In this document: one piece after another, positions 19,806 to 22,254 of the stretch
Numbering within the stretch: position 1 is the stretch's first letter
Layout of the letters: each line of letters starts with the position of its first letter
Translations under genes and position numbers: made by a program
Source: Hydrogenophaga sp.
GTDB taxonomy: Bacteria > Pseudomonadota > Gammaproteobacteria > Burkholderiales > Burkholderiaceae_C
Assembly (NCBI GenBank): GCA_018993155.1
Contig: JAGKSX010000128.1
Coordinates: 1 to 32,804 of the forward strand
Direction of reading: 5' to 3'
DNA: 32,804 bases
The notes under the pieces: model-generated
What the model was told of the DNA's origin: nothing
Database searches by the model: none
Seen by the model: the letters and a program-made list of their open reading frames with translations, nothing else

Positions 19806-20546
19806 CTAGGAGGCCAGCCACTGCGCCAGAGAGACCTTCCCGATGCGCGCGTTGGGGCCGGGAATGAGGGCGTTGCCCTCCAGCGGCGAACCGAAATACG
19901 TGGCCCTGGGGTCCGACACCACCTCGCGCCGATCCTGGCGCGCCTGGAACACCTGGCGGACGAGCTGGTCCAGCGGCACGGCTTCGGGCCCCGCCACTTC
20001 GCAGGTGCCGTTGAGCGGTGCCTGCACCGCCACGTCCGCCAGCGCCACGGCCACGTCGCTCGCCGCGATGGGCCGCAACGGCGCCGAGGGCAGGCGCACG
20101 GTCTGGCCTTCGGTGGCCGCCTGGGCGATCGGCATCAGGAACTCGTGGAACTGGGTGGCGCGCACAAGGGTGTAGGGCACCGGCCCGGCCTGGATCAGCG
20201 CTTCCTGCGCCACCTTGGCACGGAAATAGCCGCTCGCCGGCACGCGCTCCGAACCCACCACCGACAGGGCGACGAAGTGCCCCACGCCGGCGCGCGCGCT
20301 GACGTCCAGCAGGTTGCGGGTGGAGGCGCGGAAGAAGTGCATCACTGCCTCGTCCTCGAACGATGGCGAGTTGCTGACGTCCACCACCACCTGCGCACCG
20401 GCCAGGGCCTCGCTCAGGCCCTCGCCCGTGACGGCGTTGACGCCCGACGACGGCGAGGCCGCCGTCACCGCATGGCCGGCCTGGCGCAGCAGGGCGGTGA
20501 GTTGCTTTCCGATGAGGCCGCTGCCTCCGATGACCACGATGTTCAT
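19806..20546 (-). CDS. NmrA-like NAD(P)-binding protein, probable ECF41 target (the epimerase of a COE set)
   Basis: A 246-residue short-chain NAD(P)-binding protein (NmrA/atypical SDR) starting MNIVVIGGSGLIGKQL, with the GGSGLIG nucleotide motif at 7-13. It continues with VVVDVSNSPSFED, VGHFVALSVVGSER, YFRAKVAQEALIQ and VPYTLVRATQFHEF. The YxxxK of this segment (YFRAK) fits the SDR family. The start overlaps the stop of the upstream decarboxylase-like gene as ATGA and has GGAG upstream, so the two are translationally coupled. Together they match the carboxymuconolactone decarboxylase/oxidoreductase/epimerase (COE) genes that neighbour ECF41 sigma factors. Substrate unknown. Confidence 0.9.
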   Translation of the reverse strand: MNIVVIGGSGLIGKQLTALLRQAGHAVTAASPSSGVNAVTGEGLSEALAGAQVVVDVSNSPSFEDEAVMHFFRASTRNLLDVSARAGVGHFVALSVVGSERVPASGYFRAKVAQEALIQAGPVPYTLVRATQFHEFLMPIAQAATEGQTVRLPSAPLRPIAASDVAVALADVAVQAPLNGTCEVAGPEAVPLDQLVRQVFQARQDRREVVSDPRATYFGSPLEGNALIPGPNARIGKVSLAQWLAS

Positions 20547-21001
20547 GCGATCTCCTTCTCGGGGACGGGTGCGTGCATGCCCACGGCCATGCGGTTCCAG
20601 GCATTGATCTGGGCGATGGTCCAGCACAGCTCGACGATTTCCTGGTCGCTGAGCTGGTGCTGCAACTGCGCGAAATCCGCGTCGCGGTCAGCGTGGTGCT
20701 CCGCCAGGCGGGTCAGGGATTCGGCCCAGTTCAGCGCCGCACGCTCGCGCTCGCTGTACAGGCTGGTCTCGCGCCAGGTCACGAGGCTGTTGATGCGCTG
20801 CCAGCGCTCGCCGTGCTTGCGCAGGTCGCGCACGTGCATGTCCACGCAGAAGGCGCAGCCGTTGAGCTGCGAAACGCGCGTCTTCACGAGTTCGATCAGG
20901 ATCGTGCCGAGCGAGGAGCCGGCGGTGGTGGCACCGACGGCAGCCATGGCCTGGTAGGCCTTGGGTGCGATCTCGGTCCAGGGGAGTCGGGGGGATTTCA
21001 T
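20543..21001 (-). CDS. Carboxymuconolactone decarboxylase/AhpD-like protein, ECF41 target
   Basis: A 152-residue all-helical AhpD-fold protein with the redox motif CAFCVDMH (C49, C52, H56), which in AhpD supports peroxidase-type chemistry. The rest follows the pattern of the family (LIELVKTRVSQLNGC, ERERAALNWAESLTRL, LCWTIAQINAWNRMAV). The start at 21001 gives the standard N-terminus MKSPRLPWTEIAP; the in-frame extension further upstream would enter the MITE. An exact ECF41-type promoter lies 39-65 bases upstream of the start. It is the first gene of a coupled pair with the NmrA-like gene. Confidence 0.92.
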   Translation of the reverse strand: MKSPRLPWTEIAPKAYQAMAAVGATTAGSSLGTILIELVKTRVSQLNGCAFCVDMHVRDLRKHGERWQRINSLVTWRETSLYSERERAALNWAESLTRLAEHHADRDADFAQLQHQLSDQEIVELCWTIAQINAWNRMAVGMHAPVPEKEIA

Positions 21002-21039
21002 GCTTCGTCTTTCAGAGGGTTGGGGAACACACCTCTGAA

Positions 21040-21066
21040 GACGGTCAAGGCCTCGGGTTTGTGACA
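21040..21066 (-). promoter_or_regulatory. ECF41-type promoter of the decarboxylase/epimerase operon
   Basis: On the minus strand TGTCACA (21066-21060) and CGTC (21043-21040) are separated by exactly 16 bases, matching the promoter known for group ECF41 sigma factors. The same pattern, with AA.CCG after the -35, precedes the sigma gene at 22254-22228. The MITE starts only 4 bases upstream of the -35 element (after the TA). Confidence 0.88.
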
Positions 21067-21070
21067 GGTA

Positions 21071-21336
21071 GGGCCTGTTCACCCTATTTTTCCAAGATGC
21101 GTTGCGGATCAAAAAGGCCCTGCGCAAGGCGCGAAACGCAGACGGGCCGGTGGCCCGGCGAGGCTTCGCAACGCAGCGCAGGGCCTTTTTGGCCGCAACC
21201 CGAAGGGAATGGGTTGAAAACAGCGCCACTCTTCGTTGCACTCCTAGGCCAGACCCCCAGTCTGGCCGTCGTCGCGCGCCTCGATTGGCGCTGTTTTCAA
21301 CCCATTCGCATTTGGAAAAATAGGGTCAACAGGCCC
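21071..21336. mobile_element. 266-bp palindromic MITE-like element with TA target duplication
   Basis: Terminal inverted repeats of 25 bp (21071-21095 and 21312-21336) match at 24 positions, beginning GGGCCTGTT and ending AACAGGCCC, and are flanked on both sides by TA (21069-21070 and 21337-21338). Inside are a perfect 15-bp inverted repeat (21111-21125/21176-21190), a perfect 21-bp one (21208-21228/21286-21306) and an 8-bp one (21247-21254/21260-21267). No transposase is encoded. TA duplication fits elements mobilised by IS630/Tc1-type transposases (inference). Confidence 0.85.
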
Positions 21337-22218
21337 TAGGTCGCGGCCCAGCGCGACGGCGATGCGCGCGAGCTTGTCGGGGTTGCGTTGCACATGCAGG
21401 CGCAGGATGCGCTCGCCGTCGGTCACGAACGACTGCGCCGACTCCAGCCCGCCCCGGATGAAACGCAGCAGGCCCCACTGCCCGTTGAGCACCACGACCT
21501 CGAAGCGCACGCCTTCGCCGAAGCGCCGGTGCGTGGCGTAGTAGAGCTGCGCGATGCGCCGCCCGCCCACCAGCGGCACGCCGAAGCTGGGCACCTTGCC
21601 GCCGCCGTCGCCGATCAGTTGCGCGTCCTCGGCCAGCAGCGACTGCAGCCGGTGAAACTGCCCGGTGGCGGCCGCATCGGCAAAGCCGCGCAGCAGGCGC
21701 AGCTGGGCCTCGCGCGGCACGATGTGGCGCGGCCGGTCGTCCTGCAGCTGCGCCTTGGCGCGGTGCACGATCTGGCGGCAGGCGCTCTCGGTCTTGCCCA
21801 GGGCCTCGGCCACCTCGCCGTAGTCGGCGTCGAACACCTCGCGCAGCAGAAAGGCCGCGCGCGCCTCGGGTGCGAGCCGCTCCAGCATGGCGAGAAAAGC
21901 CACCGACACGTCGTCGGCGCGCTCCAGCAGCTGTTCGGGCGTCACCGGCGCATCGGCCAGCAGCGGCTCGGGCAGCCAGGTGCCGATGTAGTGCTCGCGC
22001 TGCACCTTGGCGCTGCGCAGGCGGTCGATCGCCAGGCGCGTGGTCACGGTCACCAGCCAGGCCTCGCTGCTGTCCAGATCGGCGTGCGCGGCCTCGTGCC
22101 AGCGCAGCCAGGCGTCCTGCACCACCTCCTCGGCTTCGGCTGGCGAGCCCAGCATGCGGTAGGCGATGCCCTGCAGCCGGGGGCGCAGGCGGTGGAAGGT
22201 GGTGGTGGGATCGTTCAT
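21244..22218 (-). CDS. ECF41-type RNA polymerase sigma factor with SnoaL-like C-terminal domain and a MITE-derived tail
   Basis: Sigma-70 family factor of 324 residues. Regions 2 and 4 are at about 1-75 (RPRLQGIAYRMLGSPAEAEE, VVQDAWLRWHEA) and 105-160 (MLERLAPEARAAFLLREVFD, YGEVAEALGKTESACRQIVH). The SnoaL-like extension follows from about 170. All three ECF41 signature motifs are present: WLPEPL (81-86), DGGGK (204-208) and NPDKL (279-283). In this group the extension controls sigma activity in place of a separate anti-sigma factor. Residues 295-324 are encoded by the MITE, which removed the original stop. An exact TGTCACA-N16-CGTC promoter ends 9 bases before the ATG, so autoregulation and a leaderless or nearly leaderless mRNA are likely. 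Confidence 0.93.
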   Translation of the reverse strand: MNDPTTTFHRLRPRLQGIAYRMLGSPAEAEEVVQDAWLRWHEAAHADLDSSEAWLVTVTTRLAIDRLRSAKVQREHYIGTWLPEPLLADAPVTPEQLLERADDVSVAFLAMLERLAPEARAAFLLREVFDADYGEVAEALGKTESACRQIVHRAKAQLQDDRPRHIVPREAQLRLLRGFADAAATGQFHRLQSLLAEDAQLIGDGGGKVPSFGVPLVGGRRIAQLYYATHRRFGEGVRFEVVVLNGQWGLLRFIRGGLESAQSFVTDGERILRLHVQRNPDKLARIAVALGRDLGPVDPIFPNANGLKTAPIEARDDGQTGGLA

Positions 22219-22227
22219 GACCTGCCA

Positions 22228-22254
22228 GACGGGCGAGCGCCCGGTTTTGTGACA
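22228..22254 (-). promoter_or_regulatory. ECF41-type autoregulatory promoter of the sigma gene
   Basis: TGTCACA (22254-22248), 16 bases, then CGTC (22231-22228), identical in elements and spacing to the promoter at 21066-21040. The -10 element ends 9 bases before the sigma ATG at 22218, so transcription should start within a few bases of the start codon. Confidence 0.88.

Follow-up and report, generated by a model that had tools for sequence, protein, structure and literature searches.

Results

An ECF41 sigma factor gene and its probable target genes

The window, by which we mean the whole 32,804-nt stretch of Hydrogenophaga DNA analyzed here, contains an ECF41 (SigJ/SigX4-like) sigma factor gene of 324 codons plus a TAG stop on the minus strand (21244..22218), assigned from profile and structure-sequence matches. 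The encoded protein matched TIGR02957 (4.6e-103, over residues 7-286) and PRK09636 SigJ (1e-86), and its nearest solved relative by sequence was SigJ (PDB 5xe7, 4.6e-43). It follows the ECF41 plan, with sigma regions 2 and 4 (Pfam Sigma70_r2 and r4_2, at residues 8-71 and 107-158) followed by a C-terminal extension of ~100 residues. We observed WLPEP in the linker and both DGGGK and NPDKL in the extension, and we take DGGGK to be a conserved ECF41 motif. In the translation, NPDKL occupies residues 279-283 (21370..21384, minus strand). W81, P83, E84, P85, D204, G205-G207, N279, P280, K282 and L283 were invariant across 38 sequences, and L82 was likewise invariant in 28 sequences. WLPEP is described as the ECF41 linker motif (PMC3426412, in part). 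A SnoaL-like domain is given as a feature of the ECF41 extension (review PMC8999054, in part); the extension of the window protein had no Pfam match to it at 1e-3, and the sequence match to 5xe7 covered residues 6-258.

Two genes follow 3′ of the sigma gene on the same strand. One encodes a carboxymuconolactone decarboxylase/AhpD-like protein (20543..21001, minus strand; PF02627, 2.2e-20) and is the probable target. The other encodes an NAD(P)H-binding/NmrA-like protein (19806..20546, minus strand; PF13460, 1.6e-9; PF05368, 2.8e-7); it was profile-searched as 19809-20627, and the ATG at 20546 is an assumed start, chosen by inspection. The two genes probably form one operon. The usual neighbors of ECF41 genes are carboxymuconolactone decarboxylase, oxidoreductase or epimerase genes (Wecke 2012, PMC3426412, in part), and the PF02627 and NmrA/epimerase matches agree with this. 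The decarboxylase frame stays open (20543-21241, minus strand) back into the mobile element described below, where it has a GTG at 21241. The ATG at 21001 is the likely start, and because the frame is open into the element, a gene caller could pick a false, element-derived N-terminal extension of the decarboxylase.

The published target promoter motif of ECF41 factors is TGTCACA-n16-CGTC (Wecke 2012, PMC3426412, in part). With a spacer of 14-18 nt, this pattern occurred twice in the 32.8-kb window compared to 0.13 occurrences expected, and 0 of 100 shuffles contained two. The first occurrence, which fits both the pattern and the published motif, is an intact TGTCACA-N16-CGTC promoter of the decarboxylase gene (21040..21066, minus strand). 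The second, an ECF41-type promoter identified by the pattern (22228..22254, minus strand), lies directly upstream of the sigma gene and would make autoregulation of the sigma factor probable.

A MITE lies across the end of the sigma gene

Between the ancestral part of the sigma coding sequence and the decarboxylase promoter is an element of 270 bp, including both TA copies (21069..21338, no strand), recognized by its inverted repeats, its multi-copy family and a one-TA empty site. We classify it as a miniature inverted-repeat transposable element (MITE) because of its length, ends and copy number and because it is without a transposase gene. The left and right terminal inverted repeats, each with a TA copy (21069..21095 and 21312..21338, no strand), are 27 nt long and 96% complementary, and the sigma frame reads into the right one. 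The MITE holds two internal hairpins, one of which has arms at 21207-21231 and 21283-21307. Its single-strand fold was −183.5 kcal/mol compared to a shuffle mean of −104.3 (z −15.4; 0 of 200 shuffles equal). Terminator-like sites numbered three at 20900-21500, against 0.6 expected, and two of them lie within the MITE on the sigma strand.

The sequence-only reading of this DNA had placed the right end of the MITE within the sigma frame, with codon 294 over the TA and residues 295-324 and a TAG read from the element, and translation confirmed this. Codon 294 (CTA, 21337-21339) holds the right-hand TA. Residues 295-324 are element-encoded (21247..21336, minus strand), with the same tail in P0002 and P0121 (see below), and the TAG stop (21244..21246, minus strand) lies between the two hairpin arms given above. 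Empty sites with a single TA had also been anticipated. When the flanks were joined with one TA, the alignment scores against the MITE-free loci L041, L043, L045 and L065 were 187, 191, 161 and 173, compared to 180, 184, 154 and 169 with no TA and 181, 185, 155 and 170 with two. The TA duplication therefore holds, since the one-TA join scored best against all four of these relatives. The alignments to L041 and L045 had no gap at the insertion site.

The joined flanks read GRDLPVTNPRP*, which is the ancestral sigma end, and the relatives end alike: GRELAVTNPGV (L041), GRNLAVTNPVP (L045), GRELAVTHTRP (L043) and GREGSVTKPPT (L065). Together, the joined flanks and the ends of the relatives indicate that Leu294 was kept and that the seven native residues after it were exchanged for thirty element-encoded ones. 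The stranded ancestral end, codons PVTNPRP plus TGA, is still recognizable from the joined flanks and the alignment to relatives (21045..21068, minus strand), and the promoter was also kept. The proposal that the MITE replaced the stop codon is thus correct in effect but not to the letter, as the original TGA (21045-21047) survives outside the element along with its seven preceding codons. MITE-free proteins had been expected to end within about 15 residues of NPDKL; this was close, the distance being 17-18 residues in the nearest MITE-free relatives.

Distribution of the MITE family

The source genome contains three full or nearly full copies of the MITE and two partial copies at contig ends. 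A match of any length was found in at least 36 of 67 genomes of the genus, source genome included, which is a lower bound from 11 candidates scored per genome. In a draw of 300 genomes from the order, with two candidates scored per genome and hence also as lower bounds, at least 23 had any match (source genome included), and beyond the genus at least two carried copies that match over 269 or 270 of the 270 bases, with 78-82% identity. The closest named records were Hydrogenophaga, and the MITE had no match in the phage and plasmid collections. Caenimonas soli has paired, matching MITE ends ~2.6 kb from its sigma gene (L047 6489-6754), an occurrence of the family beyond Hydrogenophaga. Internally deleted copies, read by eye, exist elsewhere in the genus (L211, L215 and L222). 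A search of the source genome for an autonomous parent did not find the DDE_3 profile. End pairs of unusual spacing in two genomes, together with 13 fetched stretches (ends and remnants inspected in eight), yielded remnants, shorter forms or one-ended copies and no parent.

The MITE family occupies natural stop codons

We analyzed 61 near-full copies (≥264 of 270 bases), comprising 60 fetched copies (L150-L209) and that of the window, of at least 67 listed. TA was present at both ends in 39 of the 61. A TA at a single end was enough for a copy to count as TA, and five copies, which had a short flank or lacked TA at both ends, were omitted from the site statistics, which left 56 usable. The empty site was YTAR in 53 of these 56, and CTAG in 26 of the 53. 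GTAG, the site in the window, is among the three departures from YTAR: the sigma insertion is an off-consensus exception within its family.

Natural TAA or TAG stop codons were occupied at 22 of the 56 usable sites. We scored as genes those open frames of at least 60 codons with a codon score >0.25, using a codon table from 12 window genes. By this test a coding-like frame entered a copy at 25 of 122 ends, and in 22 of the 25 it did so exactly at its own stop. At all 22, the joined site is TAA or TAG and the occupied site is TAG, made of the TA and the first G of the element. A Pfam match at 1e-3 supported 20 of the 22 frames (not L157 or L208; L193 matched only below the curated cut-off). The other three frames belong to the sigma gene (31 codons vs 8), a GntR/FCD regulator (4 vs 3) and an OpgC-like gene (23 vs 19).

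Stop codons accounted for 21 of 53 YTAR MITE sites compared to 24 of 259 control YTAR sites (odds ratio 6.4, P = 3e-7), the control being 400 kb from nine MITE-bearing genomes with places near MITE ends masked. Against this control, the excess persisted when non-coding sites only were used (P = 6e-7) and when the gene threshold was loosened (23/53 vs 33/259, P = 1e-6). In a second control of 400 kb, drawn from four genomes in which the MITE had no match, 8 of 208 YTAR sites were at stops (P = 9e-11). A 115-kb control (11/42, P = 0.20) had suggested that YTAR alone explains the stop-codon sites; 9 of its 17 source stretches held MITE ends, and with these removed 4 of 20 sites were at stops (P = 0.17), which is too few. 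Given the MITE copies in this control and the excess over both 400-kb controls, we dropped the explanation by YTAR alone. The excess may reflect targeting or the survival of harmless insertions. Separately, copies at L174 and L184 (the same place in two genomes) and at L181 were classed, like that of the window, as inside coding-like frames and are possible further element-altered proteins.

Sigma homologues with full and shortened tails

Of 8000 proteins scored in the homologue search, 5929 reached E 1e-60 or better and 120 of these were listed; they include the window protein itself (P0001) and P0116, which has a variant of the NPDKL motif. P0002 (98% identity) comes from another contig (14782 vs 32804 bases) and has the same 324-residue form; five of its six differences lie within the first 294 residues and the sixth within the tail. 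P0003 (95% identity, 22 member sequences) has the C-terminus LGPVDPQRILEK. A MITE with one internal deletion encodes exactly LGPVDPQRILEK followed by a stop, and judging from the protein sequence the P0003 end would derive from an internally deleted MITE at the same place. The other 117 listed homologues had no such tail by inspection. When residues 285-324 were used as the query, three proteins were returned: P0001, P0002 and P0121. P0121 is an unrelated Hydrogenophaga helicase-associated-domain protein with 29 of 35 residues identical at its own C-terminus (223-257), and finding this tail on unrelated proteins identifies it as derived from the element. A MITE-free protein with the same 30 residues would speak against this origin; none was present among the 120 listed homologues and the best 80 of 212 genome loci.

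We considered the GRDTGPV-type tails of L042, L044 and L046 as MITE remnants and rejected this, as the inverted repeat (≤5 of 23 mismatches) is absent there. By the same measure the repeat occurred in 1 of 80 loci only, L047, far from its sigma gene. At the sigma 3′ ends of L042, L044 and L046 there is a GGGCCTGT-like stretch, and TGTCACA is preceded by extra bases; an old, decayed insertion there is unproven.

In close relatives the sigma gene end overlaps a target-type promoter

The −35 box of the decarboxylase promoter falls within the native end of the sigma gene, GTC ACA AAC CCG. The MITE entered two bases upstream of TGTCACA, such that the promoter was spared and the overlap was ended. 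The sequence-only reading had described the sigma gene and the MITE and missed this overlap with the target promoter. Among the best 80 of 212 genome loci, 12 have a promoter that overlaps the sigma end (L041, L043, L045, L047-L049, L052-L054, L063, L065 and L070) and 39 have one ≤250 nt downstream; the promoter pattern was unmatched in 27, and the protein motif was absent in two. A VT dipeptide was present in the tail at 12/12 overlap loci, 0/39 downstream-promoter loci and 2/27 pattern-unmatched loci. TGTCAC spells VT in the sigma frame. Because VT tracks the promoter class, promoter DNA is the best reading of this feature common to native tails. In relatives, the distance from sigma stop to promoter ranges from overlap to >100 nt in one, and since it varies, distance alone may not matter.

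The tail beyond NPDKL is predicted to be disordered

In two AlphaFold models, pLDDT was <50 at residues 296-324 and at 300-324, respectively. Both models were modest overall (mean pLDDT 64 and 72; pTM 0.49 and 0.45). On these models the tail is predicted to be disordered, although at this model quality it may still contact the sigma domains. Natural tails after NPDKL span 9-35 residues at the 78 of 80 loci that have the motif (best 80 of 212), and 15-29 residues in 116 of 117 MITE-free listed homologues, the remaining one being P0116. The window tail is 41 residues long after NPDKL, compared to 35 for the longest MITE-free tail among these loci and homologues. The suggestion that a position after NPDKL makes the tail important was not upheld, given the predicted disorder, the range of natural tails and the tie between VT and the promoter.

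Discussion

Our preferred reading, which we regard as probable, is that the MITE insertion ended the overlap between sigma gene and promoter and left the promoter intact, that the tail is a tolerated by-product, and that the main effect is transcriptional. Before the insertion, the end of the sigma gene and the target promoter shared DNA, as they do in close relatives. A TA-duplicating MITE then entered the Leu294 codon, two bases ahead of the −35 box in the probable target promoter, and exchanged seven native residues for thirty element-encoded ones without harm to the promoter. As a result, a hairpin-forming MITE of 270 bp now separates the old sigma coding sequence from the promoter. The disordered tail would be tolerated, and the likelier functional consequence would be transcriptional: the loss of the overlap and reduced read-through out of the sigma gene would leave the decarboxylase gene dependent on its own promoter.

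The locus shares its domain plan, WLPEP, neighbor gene and TGTCACA-n16-CGTC promoter with the ECF41 factors described in PMC3426412 (in part), and differs from them in having a MITE between sigma end and promoter and a 30-residue tail. Like the window MITE, QMITE1 and QMITE2 of Coxiella burnetii provide functional genes with stop codons and C-terminal residues, and enhC gains 33 residues from a QMITE in one strain; they belong to another family and host, and in the part of that paper cited here they involve neither a sigma factor nor an overlap with a target promoter (PMC5896051). The palindromic elements of Rickettsia are also small and form in-frame fusions with many unrelated genes, but they sit within reading frames, whereas the window MITE lies at a 3′ end and brings its own stop (PMC10969869, in part). 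IS711 of Brucella likewise has a YTAR target, a TA duplication and ties to palindromic repeats; it is 842 bp long with its own reading frames, whereas no transposase was found for the MITE, and we liken the two by target rule alone (PMC2266754, in part). Among the open-access matches listed (titles and abstract starts), we found no report of such a tail in ECF41, of this MITE in Hydrogenophaga or of a MITE that rebuilds stop codons. The view that no such case had been described thus stands for ECF41 among those matches; taken more broadly it fails, as MITE-encoded C-termini are on record (PMC5896051 and PMC10969869, both in part). Element-made protein ends are already known elsewhere, and the sigma case is a well-documented new example.

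A whole change that was neutral, with tail and spacing both irrelevant and the insertion drifting to fixation, is a possible account, although we lean away from it. The intact promoter, the variable natural tails and the varied spacing between sigma stop and promoter among relatives are consistent with drift, but the MITE is a very strong RNA hairpin, from which an effect on mRNA would be expected. We think it unlikely that the MITE seeks stop codons, entering the TA of TAA/TAG and rebuilding TAG with its own first base, which would keep genes whole and give them a 3′ hairpin. On that view the sigma insertion would be a near miss that parted the sigma gene from the target promoter in its last codons, shielded the target from read-through and added a tail open to removal, which one lineage has already shortened by internal deletion.

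An effect of the tail on sigma activity is possible but unsupported, and it is quite doubtful that the tail alters activity, for example by disturbing the hold of the C-terminal domain on the sigma domains. Two ECF41 factors cut back to 204 and 206 residues gained ~20-fold and ~120-fold in activity (PMC3426412, in part), the tail begins a few residues past the last predicted helix (280-289 in the models), and the P0002 tail has one change in 30 residues compared to five in the first 294. However, those truncations took away much of the extension, which weakens the argument of the sequence-only reading from the NPDKL arm, as the published changes in activity came from removal and not from addition past the end (PMC3426412, in part). 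Moreover, natural tails cover a range of 9-35 residues, both models predict disorder, and P0003 is without most of the tail although it is otherwise 95% identical. An assembly or sequencing error, foreseen as a possible refutation, is extremely improbable even for a draft of 176 contigs with two family copies at contig ends, because P0002 has the tail on another contig in the same 324-residue form with six differences, P0003 ends as a deleted element would and P0121 shares the tail, and also since the junction obeys the TA rule and the window copy is internal to its contig.

Returning to the reading in which the insertion parted the sigma gene from its target promoter, our data show that the last codons of some ECF41 genes are also the −35 box of the target promoter, and this predicts which C-terminal residues may be present for DNA reasons. 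The locus offers a natural, stepwise case of a mobile element entering a protein, with empty-site relatives, a full insertion and, as the protein sequence would suggest, a shortened remnant. The MITE family sits in natural stop codons beyond the YTAR expectation and rebuilds the stop with its first base, and here targeting versus survival is testable.
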